A stretch of 64,000 nucleotides of DNA from positions 1,816,725 to 1,880,724 of the forward strand of contig NC_086354.1 in assembly GCF_036324505.1 (NCBI RefSeq), given 5' to 3'. Below the pieces are notes generated by a model. The model ran no database searches. It was given only the letters and a program-made list of their open reading frames with translations, and was not told the origin of the DNA. Shown here in pieces: positions 11,301-61,500 of the stretch (position 1 is its first letter; each line of letters begins with the position of its first letter). The DNA comes from Eleginops maclovinus. Its lineage: Eukaryota; Chordata; Actinopteri; Perciformes; Eleginopidae. The position numbers and the translations under genes are program-made.

Positions 11301-11848
11301 ACATTGAGCAAATGTTTTATAGTTTCAAGGTGAAAGATGACCACCGCAACTATCTACGCTTTCTGTGGCACAAAGACAACTGCCCCAGCAAAGAAATCAT
11401 CAACACAGAAGACCCAGAGATCAGAGGTTTCTTACAAGATCGAGGCTGCACCTGGTCATTCAACGCACCACATTCCTCCCACATGGGGGGAGCATGGGAA
11501 AGAATGATTGGAGTCGCACAACGCATTCTTGACGGGCTTCTGTTGAAAAACACCACCACAAGACTCACACATGAAGTGTTGACCACTCTTATGGCCGAAG
11601 CCATGGCCATCATGAACTCTCAACCTTTAACACCCATCTCATCCGACACGGAGGTACCCCAGGTTCTCTCACCTGCAATGCTACTGACCCAGAAAGCAAG
11701 CGTAGCTCCTGCTCCTCCAGGTGACTTTAAAATGGATCATCTGCACAAAAGTCAGTGGCGACAGGTCCAGAGCTTGGCTGACTCATTCTGGAAAAGATGG
11801 AGGCAGGAGTATTTGGCAACTCTACAACCGAGAAGAAAGTGGACATAG
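8303..11848 (+). CDS. BEL/Pao Gag-Pol polyprotein, internally deleted
   Basis: One 1181-residue frame. Order: basic/acidic coiled-coil N-terminus rich in Ala, Glu and Lys (about 40-160); Pro/Gln-rich linker; Gag core of the DUF1759 type (about 245-440); two zinc knuckles (CAIHNKPHPLFKC, and CYRCCASTKHVAKDC followed by CRECDSERH, about 500-560); retroviral-type aspartic protease with VVLDDQSNRS (about 630); start of the reverse transcriptase (VYHPQKPDKIRVVFDSSA, then ITADIEQMFYSF). The frame then jumps from about residue 1035 into the integrase C-terminal part, SHMGGAWERMIG, which holds the catalytic glutamate. The catalytic part of reverse transcriptase, RNase H and the first two integrase aspartates are missing, yet the frame is kept. 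An in-frame TAG ends it at 11846-11848. The copy cannot mobilise itself. Confidence 0.85.
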   Translation: MKTTEQPPSSQLVGTHSYKMADSREEEKEDKAQMTLETRSHVSCLSVRTSASTASSAATRARAKAEALKVKMSYAEKEAAMLREKAGIEEQKQKLLAEAARRKAEVEADLGMLQLEKEATAASREADVYQAAAEWEDEQRLDLGDEDRAQRTREYVQNTPLQHAPQPFPESLQTHSEPSHPLRTTTQLPLPQPQHPPRPCPHAINHGQPSRADYLGQQNSPTPHRYPPSPPSHATSNDYTDAPTPMPDFATYLIRREMVSSGLTQFDDRPENYWAWKTSFQSITQGLNLTRREELDLLVKWLGPESATQAKRIRSVHVTSPQKAVLIIWQRLEDALLKRLEDFPRISNKDPHQLRELGDLLQELESAKESGLTPGLAYLDTSRGVNPIVEKLSYSLQERWVTQGSRYKEEYKVAFPPFSFFVKFVCKQAKTRNDPSFVFSSPTCSNSMKTDRVKMNSKPSIFVKKTEVSAGTQNFPSNQSDKQNNEPDKHCAIHNKPHPLFKCRAFRIKHLDDRKAYLRENSICYRCCASTKHVAKDCKLSVKCRECDSERHVSALHPGPAPWSSEETRSESEQNEQPLNVTSKCTEICGTSPQPRSCSKICLVKVYPSKQREKAQHVYVVLDDQSNRSLAKTQFFDLFGIEGDPSPYTLKTCSGTVEMAGRKACSFTVESLDGKSTVALPPLIECNTMPDDKSEIPTADITQHFAHLSPVHGKLPPPDPHAQILLLLGRDVLSVHKVREQYNGPHNTLYAQRLDLGWVIVGEICLDRAHQPAEVNVYETHVLSNGRNSFFTPCTKSIQVRERVGHHSLLCLPDSPSDARHSRTSVIDPDHLGDNIFLRNADDERLALSIEDNIFLEVMDKGVYLDEDNHWVAPLPFRSPRTQLPNNKEQAAQRLSSLQRTFQKKPGMKEHFFEFMQKVIENRQAEPAPPMQPGEELWYLPIFGVYHPQKPDKIRVVFDSSAQYQNISLNDVLLSGPDLNNTLIGVLLRYRKEKIAITADIEQMFYSFKVKDDHRNYLRFLWHKDNCPSKEIINTEDPEIRGFLQDRGCTWSFNAPHSSHMGGAWERMIGVAQRILDGLLLKNTTTRLTHEVLTTLMAEAMAIMNSQPLTPISSDTEVPQVLSPAMLLTQKASVAPAPPGDFKMDHLHKSQWRQVQSLADSFWKRWRQEYLATLQPRRKWT

Positions 11849-12062
11849 GACAGGCCAAACCTTCAGGAAGGCGACGTCGTCCTACTCAAAGACTGTCAAG
11901 TGAAACGCAATGAATGGCCAATGGGACTTGTCACAAAAGCCATCCTAAGCAGTGACAACAGGGTTCGAAAGGTCATGGTCAAAACTGCAAATCAAGGGAC
12001 TGTCAAAGAATATCTGAGACCCATTAATGATGTTGTTTTGCTTCTTTCCAGAGATGATAATT
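11849..12062 (+). pseudogene. Polyprotein tail beyond a premature stop
   Basis: The frame of the BEL polyprotein continues past the TAG at 11846-11848 for about 70 codons (LQEGDVVLLKDCQVKRNEWP, ending YLRPINDVVLLL) to a TAA at 12062-12064. This is the usual chromodomain-like integrase tail (DUF5641 type) of BEL elements, so the TAG is a nonsense change and not the original end. Confidence 0.75.
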
Positions 12063-46845: not shown

Positions 46846-47023
46846 TTAAAGACCTCATGACACCTAGAGACTACCTTTTTTTATTTAGTCTAAAATAACT
46901 TTTATTTTCGATTTGAAATACATAATTGTGATAAATATGCCCGGTTCTCTGTTATTTTCGAAATTTGTACGCAAGCCACTGAAATCCACAGGCCAGTGTC
47001 TTGACAACGTTCCAACATAAAGA

Positions 47024-47042
47024 TGACGTATGCTCCGGAACG
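47024..47042 (+). promoter_or_regulatory. Left subterminal motif TGACGTATGCTCCGGAACG
   Basis: Lies 174 bp inside the left end and 119 bp upstream of the transposase ATG. Its counterpart on the minus strand is at 54804-54822 (and 53206-53224 in the first cargo copy), 182 bp inside the right end. It could bind the THAP transposase or act as a promoter (TGACGTA resembles a CREB/ATF site). Function is inference. Confidence 0.5.
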
Positions 47043-47160
47043 CTTTTAGACCTGATTGCACCTGCTGCCACCCTTGACCTTGATCATTTCTAGTCACAGT
47101 AAGTCGTACTCGCAGTTTTAGCATCTTTAAAGTTTTGTTCTTAATATTTTTGTTGAGAAC

Positions 47161-50100
47161 ATGCCTGAGCGGTGTGTTGCAGCGTATTGTTCAAACACCA
47201 GGGAGAACGGTTTTACCCTTCATCGGTTTCCGAAAGACCCTGCTTTGTGTGAACTCTGGACGCAACAAGTTTGTAGGACAAGAGCTGGTCCGAAAGGAAC
47301 AGTATGGAAGCCAAGCTCGTCGTCTGTACTTTGCTCAGCGCATTTTGAAGAGGAGTGCTACGACTCGATCCCCGCTCTGAAGGAGCAGCTTGGTATTGAT
47401 GTTCGTCTGAAGAAGGTTTTGCTGCCCAATTCGGTTCCGCGTATATTTCATCGAGGGACAAGCTCGAGGTTAGCCCCGGGGGCGAACGGCGACGTCAAGA
47501 GCCGGAGGTCTCATGCTCTGGAGAAAAGGCAGAGATTGGAGGTACGTACCTTCTTATTTTGGACTATATTTTAATAATGGAAGGGAAATGAAATGCAAAG
47601 GAATGAGTGTTTGGCACTGTGTAAACAGCTTGCGGTGGTTCTTCATAGTTGAAGTTGGCGCTAGCTCTGAACACTTCAGCTCAGCTGGCTACTAGTGCTA
47701 AGTGCTTTAGCTATTCAGCTAAGTTCACCTCAGAGTGTTAGCAAAAAGTCAAGTCTCAAGTGTTTGTTTTAGGTTTGCGGTAGCGTTTTTTTCCCCCTCC
47801 AACTCACGCTAAATCTTGTGATTTATTTATTTATGTTTCAGGTACTACAGGAATGCCAGTCTGAGTATGTTGCTGAAGAGGAAAGCGATGACTTTCCTGA
47901 CGGGGACCCATCTACTGATGTAAGTTTTCGGAAAGCGTTCAGGTCAACTAAGTTACTGACTAAAGATTTTATTTGACTAACTACACACAGCATTACAGTA
48001 TATCAAGTGCCAGTGCCCCCTCTCTCAGACCTTCACCCTCACCATCTCCAGAGGTGTTAAAAGTAAAAGTACTTTTGTGGTGTAATTACAACAGTAGCAC
48101 ATATAACATAACCGTTACACCATTTACTCCATTGTACCTAACTAGATAGATGGACTGTCATTACTGAAAAACACTAAAAACCTAACAAGGACCCACCACA
48201 AACTCAATTCAACCAGTGCAGAATCAGCTGATTGTAAGACAAATACACTGGTCTACTTTTTACTAGGTTACCTGTGTTGGAAGGAAACTCTATTTTTTAG
48301 TTTTTTTTTTAACTTTTACACACACACACATATGTATACACACATTTATTTATTTACTTACTTATTTATTCAGGTGAATTCAACAGAAGATCAGCACAGT
48401 GACTTTTCCGTTCAAGTGTGTCTGAGGCCACCAACAAGGACGGTGGCTATGCAGTTCAAAGGAAGGGGACGGACTAAAGGTATTTTATCATTTATGTACG
48501 TATTTTAGCCAAACAGATGTCCGGGGAAACGGGTCTTTTCAGCATTGCATCTTGTGTAAATAGATACATCACTAATGACAATCCTTTTCTATGTCAAACA
48601 TCTATTTTCACATCTACACAAGAATGTTGGAAAAACTATCTGTCTTAGGAAAAGACTATTTTACAATCTACAAATTTACTAGTGCGAGCAAGCTTCACAA
48701 AAAGTTGTGTGTATTGAATGAAGATTTCCTTCAAGCTGACACTGATTTCTATATACTAAACATTGTTTTTTCCCCAGGTGTGCAGGCTACTACATCAATG
48801 GTCACTGTTGGGACTCAGACTGAGGATGACTGCTTTTGCTTTCACAACACCGACAACTCAACCTCTTGTGGCTCTGACTCAGATGACAACATGTCGACAG
48901 ATGATCCCGACTACAAGCTGCCGTCCTCTGATGATTCAGCTGAAGAGAGTCCTGAACACAATACTCCACCAGTGCCGCCACCTGAGGCGCCAGCAGGTAG
49001 CGTTTTTCTTGTGTTCTGGGAATGCCTGGTGACGCTGTTGTCAACATGGTGCAGCTGTGGACTTTGTGGGAGCAGGTCACTGTCCTGGCAGTGTAAAGAA
49101 GTAGGAACACAGTTGCAGGTCACCATCCAGTGCGGGGGATGTGGGAACCAAGGACTATGGAACAGTCAACCTTTCTTCGGCAGAACAGCAGCTGGGAATG
49201 TGTTGTTGTCCGCTGCCATTCTCTTCAGTGGGGCCACTGTCACCAAGGTGCTGCGTGTCCTATCCAGATTGGGCGTTGCTGTGATGTCGGAAAGATCGTT
49301 CTTCAGACATCAGGACCAGGTGCTTTTCAAAGCTGTGAAGCGAGTTTGGGGCGAGCAGCAGTTTGCCATGCTCTGTCTGCTACAGGCAGAAGGGGAACCC
49401 ATCGTGTGTGGTGGTGACGGGCGTGCCGACACCCCAGGGCATTGCGCTAAGTACGGCACCTACTCAACAATGGAGCTCCGGAAAACAGCTGTTATTGACG
49501 TACAACTTGTACAGGTACATTTCAGATGTATTATGCCTCTATGTGAGTCCTGCCCAGTATAGAAAACACACTCTTCTGTCGTAGTAAGGACAATTTTATA
49601 CTAGTCAATGTTATGCTCATCAAAATCTCCTGCTTTTTATGTTTTAGAGCAATGAGGTTGGAGGGTCCTACCACATGGAGAAAGTGGGACTGCAGCGATC
49701 CCTTGAGAAAGTCCAGGGCTTTGTGGATGTCGGAACTCTCGTGACAGACAGACACATAGGCATCAACATGATGATTAGAGAGGACCATCCAGACATCACG
49801 CACCAGTTTGACATATGGCATGTAGCCAAGAGTAAGTGCAACATGTTTAAACCTGTTTAATGTAATTTTTAAGAGAGACTTGAAGCACTACCTTGACATT
49901 CCTTTTTGAAAGATATGATTTTTTGGGTTTGGACAAATTTTATGTGTGAAATCCTTGTGTGTGTGGAGGACAGGGCCTATTTCAGGCTATTACAGGCTGT
50001 TCATGTATCTAAAAAGGGTTTTAGTTATGCCCTTGGAGTCAAGACCTTCAAGCAGTACATTAGATTTCTATTTATTTATTCATCTACACATGTTTACTCA

Positions 50101-51415
50101 GGTGTCAAGAAGAAGCTGCAGAGCCTTGGACAAACTAGAGGTTGCCAGGACCTCAAACCCTGGGTGGGAAGTATTATAAACCATCTGTACTGGTCCGTGG
50201 TCTCGACGCCTCCTGGCAGTGGACAACTTGTGGTGGACAAATGGACATCAGTCATCGATCACATCCACAACAGGCACACCGGGTTCGAGGGACTGTTCTC
50301 TTCTTGTGCGCACGGAGTCCTGGAAGGCAGGGAACAGCGTAAACCGTGGCTGAGTTGTCGTTAGTATACTCCTAATGTTTATTTTACAGAGATTGTGATC
50401 ACAGTATCATGTTGCATCATGTTGCATAATTTACATGTATTTTGTACAATGTTCTTCAGATACGAAGGTGTCTATTGAAGTGGAGAAGATCATCCGGAAC
50501 AAGAGGCTGTGTGCAGATATACAACGCCTGTCCCCGTCACACCAGACATCCTACCTCGAAGCATTCCATAGCGTGATTACCCACTTTGCGCCAAAGATGT
50601 GCCACTTTTCATACAAAGGGATGGAGAGCAGGTAATCAAAGAAATATTCCGTGAAACATTCTTTTAGGACATTATTACATTCTATTACATTACACTTGCC
50701 AGACGCTTTTATCCAGAGCGACTTACAATCGAGGACAAAATCACAGCTTGCAACATTTGCAGTGCACAGGAAATGTACATGTCCTGAAGTGGTTTTGTAG
50801 GCAAGGGTCAGGGCCTTGTGCCTGGTTTGGGCAGCCACTGTTAGGCAGTGCAACCTGATAAATAGAGGGGTAACATGGGCTCTTTTGGGTTGACTTGTTT
50901 ATGTTTCGCTGTTAAGAATGGTCATCTTGTTCCTGATTATTCTGTTTGTGTTCTGTTCTTAGAGGGATCCTGGCTGCTTTGCATTTCAACGAGAATGCCA
51001 ACAGGGAGCAGCGGAGCAGACACGATGGCGAGATGATGTTCAACCTGCGGTATCCAAAGTATAAGAAGGGCGGCTACATTGTGAGGAAAGTCTTACAGGA
51101 GCCATCTTTTGGTAAGCATAATAGAAAGTTGATTGCAGATATGATTTGTATTTTGAGATGTACATAGTCGTGTGTCATATCTATGGTTGGATTAATTTGA
51201 ACCTTGTCCCATATTCCTCTGCAACAGGCTATGCTGAAGAGCTGATGCGGATGGTGGAGGCCATGTGTCGAGGTGAGGACTACAACGGTGATGACTTTGA
51301 CATCCCAGACCCGTCCCCTGTTACAGAGCCACTCAATGCATCATTCGAAAAGCCGGATAAGAGGGCAGCAGTCAATGCACATATGACCCGCTTTAGCATT
51401 ACAAATAACACCTAA
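47161..51415 (+). CDS. Kolobok transposase with THAP domain, nine exons, intact frame
   Basis: Predicted exons: 47161-47541, 47842-47919, 48374-48479, 48778-49514, 49648-49831, 50102-50359, 50460-50631, 50963-51111, 51228-51415; all introns are GT-AG and all phases agree, giving 2253 nt or 750 residues. Residues 1-95 are a THAP zinc finger: CVAAYC, conserved W, C-x2-H in SVLCSAHF, and the AVPTIF-like NSVPRIF. Next an acidic linker (EEESDDFPDGD, DNMSTDDPDYK). The catalytic part has a cysteine-rich IQCGGCGNQG, then GGDGRADTPGHCAKYGTYS, LVTDRHIGIN, FDIWHVAKS, INHLYWSV, LEAFHSVITHFAPKM and LAALHFNENANREQ, the order remembered for Kolobok. It should cut at the ends and insert at TTAA. The ATG sits in ACATGCC after an AT-rich leader. 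AATAAA follows the stop at about 51441. No disruption was seen. Confidence 0.88.
50650..50885. repeat. Fish dispersed repeat in transposase intron 7
   Basis: Contains GACGCTTTTATCCAGAGCGA, then CTTACAAT, a sequence I recall as very common in fish genomes (SINE-like or non-autonomous element). It is wholly inside the intron and does not touch coding sequence. Confidence 0.45.
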
Positions 51416-51855
51416 ATGTACACATGAGAACCGGACTGAATGGAATAAACACAAACTTAATTTCATCTTTGCCGTGAGTGCTTTGATTTACTGTGTTGGG
51501 AACCTCCTGCTCCATCCTCACCTTGGTGTTCTGAAAAGTGTCATTACAGGGTGTGTAGTATGTCTGTGTTGCTACAGTTTTCCCCCTTATCCATGTGGGC
51601 TTGTATTGCATTGTCCCTGAAGTACAGCACATCTTAGACACCGTATGATCAAAAATATCAGCTACCCTTCCATGGTGAAGGTGTAAATTGATTTGCTAGG
51701 CCTATTTGTTGTAAGCTGTTGTAAGTTGTAAAAATGAAGACACATTCATGTGAAGCCAGAGGTATCATGTATTGACATTCATTTTCATGTATTTACAAAC
51801 TCATGTATTTAAACTAAAAAAACAAAATTAACAAGTTAACAGCATACATGTATCA

Positions 51856-53143
51856 TCACGGGCTGTTGGTGTCCTGGAACCCCCTGTAATCAATGGAGGG
51901 AAAAGTTCTCCGGATACACCACACCACACAGGAAGGTATGGGGACCCTGACATGTCTTCCCAGGTACTCGTAGCACCATCGCACAAACTGTCTGTATCCA
52001 GTGTACCTCTTCCACCTAAAAGTTGAAAGAAAATCAGAAGAAAAACACAGGTGTTTTAGATGTAGGCCTAGGCCTACTGTAACCTACATGACAGTTCGTT
52101 TTACGCATACATTTACGTCATTGGTGATATCAAATCATACAATTCCTACTAGTCCATACAAATGATTTTACAATAGGATTGTATACTCACTCGTTTCCCT
52201 CTACATCCCCGTATTCTTGCCGATAGTGGAAATGTGCGGTGCGCAGAACATGCAGATTCAGACAAACTGGCTCAAAGCCAGAATGTTCTGTGATGCAGCG
52301 GGTGTCTGCTCCCTCCTCCTCTCTCCTCTCGCACACTCTTGACTGTTCGCGGCAGCACACCGACTCCACTACCAGTGGCATTGGCTCACATCTCCCACAA
52401 GAACACCTAAAATATAACAGATAAAGGCAAGGGGCTTGAAACAATCTTACAATTGTCACAGAACTTTACAAAGTGTCAATGTCATGGGTTGATTCGCGTG
52501 AAAAGCCGACGTAGAACTAGCCTAATCGCGGAAGGATGGCCACTGGTCAGGAGCTAGGTTATAGCATAGGCTACTACTGGGTTATAGCATAGGCTACTGT
52601 ATGAGTATGACGCAGGGCAAACTAATATAGTAGACCTAATTGGTATTTTCATCGCTCTCAAAAAAAATAACATAACTAAATAAAGATTAAGACTATGACA
52701 AGCACCGGGAAACAACAATGGCCCTTTGCGATCTGTAGGCTAGTAATGGTGACTATTTGGCTAATTCTGGGAGGTGAGGAGGCAGACTGCACACACACAT
52801 GCTCGCTGGTGCAAACGCTGGTTGTGGTGGATATTACAAAGTACAATATCTTACGGAGTGTTCATTGTCAGAAAAGTGAACAAGAAGGAAGTTACCATTC
52901 CACGTGCTGTAGTCTGCCAAAATCCATAGGCATCCGACCGTCTGCCACAGCAGCACCACCAACAGCGCCTTCTGCCTCGCCATCCGAACTTTCCGTAGAA
53001 CCCTGTGGCTCCAACTCATCCAAGTATGGCTCGTATCTATAGGGCATAACGCCCCTCACATTGTCCTCCAGCATTGGGTCGGACTCTGCCACTTCGAAAA
53101 ATGTGTCAGGATCCGAGGATGAATCGGAGTTGTCAGAATCCAT
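51856..53143 (-). CDS. P2X7 ballast-domain-like protein, copy 1 (Kolobok cargo)
   Basis: Three exons on the minus strand: 53143-52896, 52406-52191 and 52015-51856, with donors GGTAAC and GTGAGT, acceptors TTTTAG, and matching phases; 624 nt, 207 residues. N-terminus MDSDNSDSSSDPDTFFEVAE and a further ~60 acidic, Pro-rich residues; then CSCGRCEPMPLVVESVCCRE, CITEHSGFEPVCLNLHVL, EYGD, and in the last exon YTGYRQFVRWCYEYLG, RVPIPSCVVWCIRRTFPS. The cysteine pattern and the VIPSC..IR..FP ending are those of the P2X7 receptor cytoplasmic ballast domain, which in the receptor binds zinc and guanine nucleotide. No membrane segment or P2X channel part is present, so it is a soluble nuclear or cytosolic protein. 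Such genes occur in many copies in fish; a role in transposition is unknown. Start chosen at the first ATG; the frame is open a little upstream. Confidence 0.82.
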
Positions 53144-53205
53144 GTTGTTGACAGGTGTCAGGATAGTCGTGAGTGACAGGTGGGATAGTGTCTTGACCAA
53201 GGAGC

Positions 53206-53224
53206 CGTTCCGGAGTGTACGTCA
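53206..53224 (-). promoter_or_regulatory. Subterminal motif upstream of cargo copy 1
   Basis: Minus strand TGACGTACACTCCGGAACG, about 63 bp upstream of the copy-1 ATG. Same motif as at 47024-47042. Now internal because of the tandem duplication. Confidence 0.5.
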
Positions 53225-53392
53225 TAGGTCATGTGACTGACTAATAGGAAGGTCGGTAGCAGATCGCAAAAATCGCACTTTTAAAAGGCCGTACAAACTC
53301 AATTTCTCTATCATAATGATTAAAACCAACTTCAAGTGACTATTTTGTATGTGTACTTTCAATGTGTGTATGTATATTACTTTATTTTCCAC

Positions 53393-53410
53393 GTGTCATG
53401 AGGTCTTTAA
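53393..53410. other. Internal right-end repeat followed by TTAA at the duplication junction
   Basis: Bases 53393-53406 repeat the right terminus GTGTCATGAGGTCT, and 53407-53410 are TTAA. It is a complete transposon end plus target site inside the element, so the transposase could also mobilise 46850-53406. Confidence 0.9.
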
Positions 53411-53453
53411 ACTAAAAAAACAAAATTAACAAGTTAACAGCATACATGTATCA

Positions 53454-54741
53454 TCACGGGCTGTTGGTGTCCTGGAACCCCCTGTAATCAATGGAGGGAA
53501 AAGTTCTCCGGATACACCACACCACACAGGAAGGTATGGGGACCCTGACATGTCTTCCCAGGTACTCGTAGCACCATCGCACAAACTGTCTGTATCCAGT
53601 GTACCTCTTCCACCTAAAAGTTGAAAGAAAATCAGAAGAAAAACACAGGTGTTTTAGATGTAGGCCTAGGCCTACTGTAACCTACATGACAGTTCGTTTT
53701 ACGCATACATTTACGTCATTGGTGATATCAAATCATACAATTCCTACTAGTCCATACAAATGATTTTACAATAGGATTGTATACTCACTCGTTTCCCTCT
53801 ACATCCCCGTATTCTTGCCGATAGTGGAAATGTGCGGTGCGCAGAACATGCAGATTCAGACAAACTGGCTCAAAGCCAGAATGTTCTGTGATGCAGCGGG
53901 TGTCTGCTCCCTCCTCCTCTCTCCTCTCGCACACTCTTGACTGTTCGCGGCAGCACACCGACTCCACTACCAGTGGCATTGGCTCACATCTCCCACAAGA
54001 ACACCTAAAATATAACAGATAAAGGCAAGGGGCTTGAAACAATCTTACAATTGTCACAGAACTTTACAAAGTGTCAATGTCATGGGTTGATTCGCGTGAA
54101 AAGCCGACGTAGAACTAGCCTAATCGCGGAAGGATGGCCACTGGTCAGGAGCTAGGTTATAGCATAGGCTACTACTGGGTTATAGCATAGGCTACTGTAT
54201 GAGTATGACGCAGGGCAAACTAATATAGTAGACCTAATTGGTATTTTCATCGCTCTCAAAAAAAATAACATAACTAAATAAAGATTAAGACTATGACAAG
54301 CACCGGGAAACAACAATGGCCCTTTGCGATCTGTAGGCTAGTAATGGTGACTATTTGGCTAATTCTGGGAGGTGAGGAGGCAGACTGCACACACACATGC
54401 TCGCTGGTGCAAACGCTGGTTGTGGTGGATATTACAAAGTACAATATCTTACGGAGTGTTCATTGTCAGAAAAGTGAACAAGAAGGAAGTTACCATTCCA
54501 CGTGCTGTAGTCTGCCAAAATCCATAGGCATCCGACCGTCTGCCACAGCAGCACCACCAACAGCGCCTTCTGCCTCGCCATCCGAACTTTCCGTAGAACC
54601 CTGTGGCTCCAACTCATCCAAGTATGGCTCGTATCTATAGGGCATAACGCCCCTCACATTGTCCTCCAGCATTGGGTCGGACTCTGCCACTTCGAAAAAT
54701 GTGTCAGGATCCGAGGATGAATCGGAGTTGTCAGAATCCAT
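53454..54741 (-). CDS. P2X7 ballast-domain-like protein, copy 2
   Basis: Exons 54741-54494, 54004-53789 and 53613-53454, each exactly 1598 bp to the right of the copy-1 exon with the same sequence. Encodes the same 207-residue protein. It lies next to the true right end, so it is likely the copy in the original position relative to the terminus. Transcription would start within the last ~260 bp of the element, mirroring the transposase promoter at the other end. Confidence 0.82.
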
Positions 54742-54803
54742 GTTGTTGACAGGTGTCAGGATAGTCGTGAGTGACAGGTGGGATAGTGTCTTGACCAAGG
54801 AGC

Positions 54804-54822
54804 CGTTCCGGAGTGTACGTCA
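54804..54822 (-). promoter_or_regulatory. Right subterminal motif
   Basis: Minus strand TGACGTACACTCCGGAACG, 182 bp inside the right end, inverted relative to 47024-47042. Confidence 0.5.
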
Positions 54823-55009
54823 TAGGTCATGTGACTGACTAATAGGAAGGTCGGTAGCAGATCGCAAAAATCGCACTTTTAAAAGGCCGTACAAACTCAA
54901 TTTCTCTATCATAATGATTAAAACCAACTTCAAGTGACTATTTTGTATGTGTACTTTCAATGTGTGTATGTATATTACTTTATTTTCCACGTGTCATGAG
55001 GTCTTTAAC

Positions 55010-55823: not shown

Positions 55824-55992
55824 GAGGATTAGGGCCACATGAAAACATTCTTTTGGGGATGTCAGAATTCTGACTTTAATCTCAGAATTCTGACTTTTTA
55901 GATTTTTTTCAGAATTCCCAAGTCAGAATTCTGAGAAAAAAGTCACAATTCTGACATCCCCGAAAAAATTTTTTCATGTGGCCATAATCCTC
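55824..55992. mobile_element. Palindromic MITE-like hairpin
   Basis: A near-perfect inverted repeat with ~80-bp arms: GAGGATTAGGGCCACATGAA at the left, TTCATGTGGCCATAATCCTC at the right, and GGGGATGTCAGAATTCTGAC against its complement inside. AGAATTC is repeated internally. No coding capacity. A fold-back non-autonomous element; family and target duplication not determined. Confidence 0.85.
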
Positions 55993-58574: not shown

Positions 58575-61500
58575 CAGGGGCGCAGATAGGTTTTTGAAAC
58601 TGTGGGGGACAAAGCTGTCAGCAACGCCCCCCCTCCCCCCAACCCTGTGTTGTGCGAAGAATATACTCTGATGCCCTCAGGGCGGCGCTATTACTCAGCC
58701 ATGACATAACCCATCAAACTTATTTGCCCATCATTGCAAGAAATAAAGCATATTGGTACTGCTTCCAATCACTCACCAAGCATGCCACATGCAGTATGCA
58801 AAAACTGTTTTATTTAAACATTAACTGACTTTAAGCACACTGATTCACACCAAAAGAGCAGGCTGTAAAAAACAAAAATGTAATTAAAACACTTCTTACT
58901 GTGCCTTACAAACACAAACAGCAAAGCCTACATATATACAAAAATAAGTTTGTAAAAAAGTACTCTACATGAGTTTTCAATAAGTGGCCTCAAATGCAAA
59001 AACAGATTAAGTGAAAGATCCAAAAATCTCTCTCCTCCGATCCTTGCCCTGAATATACTGTTGGGCAATGTCTTTGCTATTAAGTTTGTCCAGCCTCTCT
59101 TGGTGGATATGGCACACTGCCATTCCATTCACCCTTTTTTGGGTGGTGGTAGACCGCAACCATGTTTTAAGCCTGCGCAAGCCACTGAAACTCCTCTCTG
59201 CCTCAGCAGACGATGCAGGCACAACCATTAACAATCGGACCACTGTCTCAACTTGCGCAAAAAGGGCACGAACTTCAACAGGCATTGCTTTTAGGAGCTG
59301 TGCAGCATCTGCAGTGGTTTTGTAATTGTACTTGTTCTTAAACATAGCTAATTGGATTTTCAAATCTTCCCACTGGAGCTCAGGGTATTTCTCTGCATTT
59401 CTCTGGGCATCTCTCTCTACATTGCTTGCAGTGGGGGTCAGCAGCAAGGCCTCCAATTCCTTAAGTGCATCTATTCCAGGCTGCATAAACCTGTCGGTAA
59501 GTTGTGTGTCTACTTTGTCCAGGACTCGGTAGAACTCCACTCTGTGGAACTCCACAGCAGATGCAGGCCTGTGTGCAGGTGCTGGCCCAGAATACCTCTT
59601 AGGGGGCCTTTGTGTGCGAGGTAGAGCAATGGGCTCTAGAGACAGCTTCTCAACTCAACTCAACTCCTCTGCTTCCTTAAAGACTGCCTCAAAGTGGTCT
59701 GACTTTCTTTTGGATCTTAAACTCTCTTGGACAACAGAGACTGCAGAGACCATGCCCTCCACTGTCTGGGTTCTTTTCTGGAGAGATGTATTCAGCAATT
59801 CCAGTTCCCTAATCACATCTAAGGCCAGCATGAGCCCCAGTACAACATTGCCTTGTTGCAGCCTAACATGTAGGCCCTCTGCCTGACTTGCAGATTCCGA
59901 ATTGCTTGCAGACATCTGATCGAGTGATTGCAGCACTGTGCCATATTGCCCGAGAACAGCACGGATAGCAGGTGTGCGTACTGTCCACCTTGTGGGACAT
60001 AAAGGCCTGATAGACTGCACTGGCCCTTCTCCTTCAGATGCGGCAATGGCTTTGAATTTGTCTTTCAGTTTGCCAGACTGACCACAAAATGTGCCAAGGT
60101 CATGGATCCAGTCAAGGGCATTTCTGATGAAAGGGGAGGTTGTGCAAGCTTGCTGTGTGACTAAATTTACACAGTGTGCACCACAATGGATATATGGTGC
60201 TAATGGCTGGCTTCTTTGGATGACTGCTTGGGCGCCTGCATATTTGCCAGACATATTTGAAGCACCATCGTATGCCTGACCTCTAAGGCTCGATATTGGC
60301 AGATTTAATCTCAACAGCACATCCAAAATGATTTTGGCAAGATTTTCGCCTGTTGTTGAAGTTGTCTCATACAACCCAATGAACTCTTCATGCACCATCA
60401 AATCTTTGTCAACATAACGTAGACACAGGGCCTCCTGCTCCACGCCTGAGATATCCCTTGTCCCATCCATTATGATGGCATACTGTAAAACTGGGAGGGA
60501 CTGTATCTCATGTGCAATTTCCCTGATGATTGATGTACTCATCAAATCTAACATCTCATTTTGGCAATCCCAAGATGTGTGCACTCCCCTCTTTCCAGAC
60601 AACCATCTTGTAAAAGCTGGATCCCCCTCAGCTTTGTATTTCAGGAGCTGGTTAAAGTTGCCTTCATGATGTTCATGCCCCCTAAAGGCCATCCCCTGCC
60701 TTGCCAGGTGCATAACACCCCCTATTATTTTTAACAGGCTTTCTCTGCTTTCTGCCTGTTGCGCACTGACTGCACTGCTCAATTGTGTGGTTATAGGTTT
60801 ACTTTCATATGCAGCTGTTGTGACAGCCACTTTGTGACCAGCTGATTTTTCGTGGATGGAGAATCTTTCCAGGGCTTTTCTCCAGTTTCTAAAGCCGGAG
60901 TTTACAAAAGCTGGGTCTATGCTCTTGGCTTGAGCTGGTTTTGCACTTCTGTAATATTTAGAGCACTGAAAACACAGAACACCATCGATGCCAGGATTGA
61001 CATGCAGCCAGGGATGCTTTTCATACCATGCTTTCTGGAATGACAGAGTACGGTCCTTCATCACTTGTTTTTTCACAAATTTAGGGTCAGGTTGATTTGG
61101 TTTCGTATATGTACTAATCATGTCAACCTCCTCTCCCTTTCCTACATCTGCCTCTGGCCTTGCCATCTCGTCTCCTGTCCATCCTTCTTCTGACCCTCCT
61201 CCTCTCTCTCCTTCTTCTGTCCCTCCCTCTTCTCCCTCTCTTCCTTCTGCCTCTTCCAGCTGTAGGCCTAATGCACTACTACTGCTGCTACCCTCCAGTG
61301 GTGGATCACTTTCAGTTTCACCTCTCTCACTGCCATCTTCAGGAACTACCTGCAGGCCAGGACCATGATAACATTTTAATATACTATAAACATTATAACT
61401 GCTTTAAGGCATTAGCACCATTAACAGTAACTTAACGTGGACATACAAGCTACCACAGAGGCTACCGGTCCCAGACGGCATATCTCTACAAGAGATTGTA

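Follow-up and report, generated by a model that had tools for sequence, protein, structure and literature searches.

A recently spread Kolobok transposon with a P2X7 ballast-domain gene in Eleginops maclovinus, and the place of the P2X7 tail among ballast domains

The ATP receptor P2X7 is of interest as a drug target in inflammation; the role of the ballast domain that forms its tail is, to our knowledge, still unsettled. The same domain is encoded by KolX, a gene of the Kolobok DNA transposon described here, which lies in a 64,000-nucleotide stretch of Eleginops maclovinus DNA (contig NC_086354.1, positions 1,816,725 to 1,880,724; hereafter the window). Kolobok transposons (Kapitonov and Jurka 2007, as cited in PMC9587614) follow a rule of 5'-RR and YY-3' termini, as given in the available text of Kojima and Bao (2022; PMC9587614). 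According to that text, Kol0 Kolobok families encode KolX, which resembles P2X7 476-595 and adopts the ballast fold, and P2X7 arose when a P2X4-like gene fused to KolX. Because these authors propose that the P2X7 tail derives from KolX, the transposon-to-tail idea is not new; a literature search joining P2X7, transposon, and exon 13 found nothing. As far as its available text shows, Rump et al. (2020; PMC7016195) described the ballast domain across animals, in genes with shared neighbours. What is added here is that the P2X7 tails appear closer to a second ballast lineage, represented by an element that we call KolB, than to the window KolX. With a probability of roughly 0.75, we read the window KolX as a gene of a recently active Kolobok, in which it would have an accessory role, and the P2X7 tail as its homologue, with nearest relatives in another ballast lineage.

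The Kolobok element and its KolX gene

An apparently intact Kolobok DNA transposon occupies positions 46850-55004 of the window, with TTAA on both flanks and AG...CT termini. An earlier note on this DNA had described, within these ends, a three-exon minus-strand gene for the P2X7 ballast domain without the channel, and the exons, the GT-AG introns, and a domain content of P2RX7_C only all agreed with that description. The note had taken 51856-54741 as one gene; this span comprises two identical tandem KolX genes, beginning with the last exon of copy 1 and ending at the copy 2 ATG, and the duplication was absent from the note. The features of the element are listed below (lengths in amino acids, aa, or nucleotides, nt; s, read from the sequence itself).

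46846..46849, no strand: TTAA target site duplication, left (s)
46846..46873, + strand: left terminal inverted repeat including TTAA, 28 nt, 86% complementary to the right end
46850..55004, + strand: complete Kolobok element with duplicated KolX and AG...CT ends (its one-KolX form, with both TTAA, is on contig C5)
47023..47042, + strand: 20-base motif 5' of the transposase gene, mirrored 5' of KolX, 18/20
47161..51415, + strand: transposase gene, 750 aa, open, 9 exons, THAP in exon 1
47161-47541, 47842-47919, 48374-48479, 48778-49514, 49648-49831, + strand: transposase exons 1-5
50102-50359, 50460-50631, 50963-51111, 51228-51415, + strand: transposase exons 6-9
51808..53410, no strand: duplicated unit, first copy, with KolX and right end (s)
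51856..53143, - strand: KolX copy 1, 207 aa, GT-AG introns, exons 53143-52896, 52406-52191, 52015-51856
53206..53225, - strand: mirrored 20-base motif 5' of KolX copy 1 (s)
53383..53410, - strand: copy 1 right terminal inverted repeat, TTAA included, now inside the element (s)
53406..53410, no strand: TTTAA duplication junction, element right end against internal TTAA (s)
53406..55008, no strand: duplicated unit, second copy, identical (s)
53454..54741, - strand: KolX copy 2, 207 aa, exons 54741-54494, 54004-53789, 53613-53454
54804..54823, - strand: mirrored 20-base motif 5' of KolX copy 2 (s)
54981..55008, - strand: outer right terminal inverted repeat with TTAA (s)
55005..55008, no strand: TTAA target site duplication, right (s)

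The profile comparison with the P2X7 cytoplasmic domain that the note had proposed gave a clear match: the spliced KolX protein hit Pfam P2RX7_C with an E value of 3.4e-14 and 53.6 bits (cut-off 23.5). No other Pfam family, and thus no P2X channel domain, was found for KolX up to an E value of 1. When the PDB was searched by sequence, four distinct sequences had E values up to 1, all of them P2X7 (best, 1.8e-6). The predicted fold also points to P2X7, to which 14 of 14 strong matches in a PDB fold search belonged. From residue 81 onward, the structure model built from 76 sequences had block means of 75-98; a first model from 12 sequences was discarded (mean predicted local distance difference test score, pLDDT, 39.4). 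Seven cysteine columns were conserved in KolX and the P2X7 tail in an alignment (A2) of 76 ballast proteins, out of 121 available at that stage. This alignment replaced cysteine counts on the rows of the tree described below, since a cysteine pattern had served to select those rows. The KolX gene has two phase-2 introns, one of them within the ballast domain.

On the opposite strand, a nine-exon splice model in which all introns are GT-AG yielded the 750-aa open frame of the transposase, with a THAP domain (PF05485) at its start (E value, 3.2e-15). This N-terminal THAP domain, the 5'-RR/YY-3' termini, and the TTAA duplication, found in the window, in the copy on contig C5, and in 10 of 10 further copies, are the characters by which we assign the element to Kolobok. 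Between its two outer TTAA, ends included, 25 TTAA sites were listed. The note had also claimed that the regions upstream of the two genes match, and they indeed appear to: a common, mirrored 20-base motif agrees at 18/20 positions, compared with 13-15/20 in 12 shuffles, and lies upstream of the two start codons, by 119-138 bases for the transposase and by 63-82 bases for KolX. Both proteins could then be produced together from matching promoters near the element ends. KolX would be a small accessory protein that binds zinc via its conserved cysteines, and it may act on the transposition complex, assisting or regulating transposition.

The kinship of the KolX protein (P0001) was patchy, with 82% to an Engraulis (anchovy) protein, 50-58% to amphioxus, and 42% to carp, and the copies in this fish are very young. 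Horizontal transfer possibly lies behind this pattern, and masking in annotations could also account for it. The idea of ballast proteins in viruses, which came from JGI-sourced matches, was rejected: two protein scans of viral contigs gave no relative, a DNA pattern led to two stretches whose translations were without the ballast domain, and a BFVD fold search gave no match with an E value up to 0.001.

Copies in the genome and the tandem duplication

The linkage of KolX and transposase was examined in this one genome (606,306,633 bases, 27 contigs). The unit made of KolX and the right end gave 41 matches at 40 loci, the window holding two; 34 of the 41 spanned all 1603 positions and 26 had the maximal score. 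The transposase part gave at least 31 matches (31 of 148 candidates scored), and it was found within 20 kb on the same strand for 30 of the 41 KolX units, directly adjoining in 27. The copy on contig C5, with both TTAA present, agreed with the window element in its one-KolX form at all but one of 6565 positions, and the 10 further family copies had TTAA on either side within differing flanks. This is a multi-copy, TTAA-flanked element with open frames for both transposase and KolX, in which KolX accompanies the transposase; the spread of the family is very recent. Because 27 of the 41 units adjoin the transposase part, it is well supported that KolX is the standard second gene of this family and not stray cargo. 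The note's suggestion that the domain belongs to the transposon is well supported, with linkage examined in this genome.

The unit at 51808-53410 recurs at 53406-55008, with 0 differences over 1603 bases and an overlap of TTTAA. Both breakpoints lie at TTAA; one is the element's own right end and the other an internal TTAA. The double KolX as the standard form of the element was ruled out, since only one adjacent pair occurs among the 41 matches. The second KolX may have arisen between sister copies, one of which had its right end attached to the internal TTAA of the other in a single step, with the transposase as the probable agent; repair via the 5-base microhomology is a possible alternative. 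The duplication could also be an assembly error that does not exist in the fish, which we regard as improbable. The identity of the copies across 1603 bases and the uniqueness of the pair speak for such an error, as does the origin of the assembly from PacBio continuous long reads (CLR); the available text of the assembly paper attributes a segment repeated in a different gene to a likely error of assembly (PMC10298351). However, the window contains no N, and both breakpoints fall on TTAA, one of them being the element's own end. An assembly error is disfavoured because it would have no reason to pick TTAA breakpoints.

Just right of the element, at 55824-55992, lies an inverted repeat whose arms, each 73 nt long and 90% complementary, are separated by 23 nt. 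Further on, the minus strand of 59007-61403 contains two long open frames of 582 and 215 aa that resemble another DNA transposase, perhaps a hAT-like one.

KolB and the position of the P2X7 tail

A Pfam profile search of the genome gave at least 10 ballast matches, two of which are pieces of P2X7; this number is a lower bound because the search missed the window's own family. Unsplit ballast domains were found at three loci (contigs C5, C8, and C9), shortened in C8. The three loci are copies of one element, KolB, of 3260, 2318, and 3467 bases, with main blocks 98-99% alike, ends AGCGATCC...GGATCGCT of the AG...CT type, and TTAA on both flanks in all three copies; a status as host genes was ruled out, all three lying in this repeated, TTAA-flanked element. 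The KolB ballast is a single exon with a phase-0 start. At five further loci, the domain is split over exons, and three of the five have related transposase fragments within the 20 kb read; no such fragments were found at the P2X7 locus.

Two side observations concern KolB. In its C9 copy (loci L014 and L013; oriented positions 11631-11880, - strand), another open frame, 83 aa long, faces the ballast gene; it has no match in Pfam and may represent exon 1 of a transposase since lost. On contig C5 at about 27772290 (loci L015 and L016), a window-family copy abuts a KolB copy, and one TTAA is common to both.

The tree was built from 241 proteins; two protein listings behind the analysis covered 120 of 263 and 120 of 139 proteins. 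Three proteins (P0001, P0010, and P0117) were removed by hand, and 21 of the remaining 238 failed the pattern or length requirement. Thinning at a pairwise score of 0.70 reduced the 103 non-P2X7 rows to 66; together with 17 hand-picked P2X7 tails, the tree comprised 83 ballast domains. In the resulting tree, the 17 P2X7 tails and 17 other domains including KolB (clade ii) stood apart from the window KolX, which lay beside amphioxus proteins across the branch from the P2X7 tails. After L-INS-i realignment and removal of 7 long or odd rows, the separating branch had a support of 100/99. The topology joining the P2X7 tails to the window KolX was rejected by the approximately unbiased (AU) test (p-AU, 0.00125; 0.00376 after the realignment and row removal), whereas that joining them to KolB was kept (p-AU, 0.216). 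Joining P2X7 with the 12-row clade around the window KolX was also rejected (p-AU, 0.0073), this clade having been named only after the tree was viewed. The route to the P2X7 tail proposed in the earlier note is, as a general idea, already published (PMC9587614, available text); the window lineage as donor is not supported, the receptor tails falling in the other clade.

In fish P2X7, the ballast domain lies in one open frame after a phase-0 acceptor (exon 13). The tree grouping and the one-exon, phase-0 ballast suggest that the P2X7 tail derived from the KolB side; the phase agreement of KolB and P2X7 alone has a chance expectation of one in three. Tentatively, and at somewhat less than even odds, the tail came from this second KolX-like lineage of KolB type and not from Kol0 KolX. 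The KolB form, with the whole ballast in one phase-0 exon, could be captured by splicing as a last exon, and one insertion beside a P2X4-like gene could supply a ready-made exon 13. By the published proposal, in contrast, a Kol0 KolX gave rise to the tail, and the window element would be a member of the Kol0 lineage. The similarity of the window KolX to P2X7 in sequence and fold favours this proposal, which we nevertheless consider unlikely in view of the rejected topologies; these were obtained with an unrooted tree that holds no Repbase Kol0 KolX.

Several observations weigh against a recently active Kolobok whose KolX has the P2X7 tail in a neighbouring lineage. Pfam gave no transposase domain above the cut-off in the window transposase (Mutator, E value 0.05), and the candidate motifs DIWH and FNEN, for a DDD/E core with C/DxxH, were picked by eye in the translation only. 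Among the transposase candidates scored, 11 of 41 KolX units had no transposase part, and 2 of 31 transposase parts had no KolX. No transposase of KolB was identified, none of the window type was found near its C8 and C9 copies, and its candidate place among Kolobok elements is based on TTAA and RR...YY ends. The tree is unrooted, and the separating branch of the first tree, with a support of 91/84, was not starred. In BLAST against the P2X7 tail, KolB (71.2 bits) scored below the clade-i fish proteins P0059 (77.4) and P0028 (75.1), and the best clade-ii partners of P2X7 among the matches listed were nameless metagenomic proteins. Finally, the signs of mobility in clade ii come from this fish only. 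The last point also favours another explanation, that ballast genes are old host genes which transposons took up and that the P2X7 tail came from a clade-ii host gene, as do the animal-wide ballast genes with shared neighbours in the available text of Rump et al. (PMC7016195). However, all three clade-ii loci found in this genome, by a search that gives a lower bound, lie inside a TTAA-flanked repeat, and the window family bears KolX as a standard gene; we consider this explanation still less likely than a Kol0 origin.

Comparison with known systems

With respect to P2X7, what the ballast originally did could be studied apart from the channel in a recently active transposon that encodes this domain. 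Furthermore, the tree points to a transposon lineage to be examined for the gain of the receptor tail, at odds with the published choice.

The Xenopus Kolobok families XKol (PMC6004289) share AG ends, TTAA, and a THAP transposase with the window element. One XKol terminal inverted repeat starts AGCGAT, as that of KolB does, a likeness of six letters only, and the main text of that paper has no P2X term. The ZCD and nanor-like proteins (PMC7016195, available text) resemble KolX in being short, ballast-only, and present across animals, and zebrafish nanor-b likewise fell outside the P2X7 group in the tree of Rump et al. There they are treated as host genes, and the stem "transpos" is absent from the main text. 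An Ixodes frame in the available part of the same paper combines a THAP-type domain (spelled TAHP) with ballast cysteines. Both this frame and the neighbours that ballast genes share might stem from association with transposons and not from synteny of host genes.

The P2X7 tail and the window KolX share P2RX7_C, the predicted fold, and the seven cysteine columns; unlike P2X7, the window KolX has no channel part, has its domain split by an intron, and belongs to the other clade. The closest described system is the Kol0 Kolobok with KolX, which agrees with the window family in TTAA duplications, 5'-RR and YY-3' ends, and a transposase accompanied by a ballast-fold KolX. KolX is the character that places the window family with Kol0, a likeness based on this gene and not on a transposase tree. 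The window family differs in its near-identical copies in this fish and in a window copy with two KolX genes.
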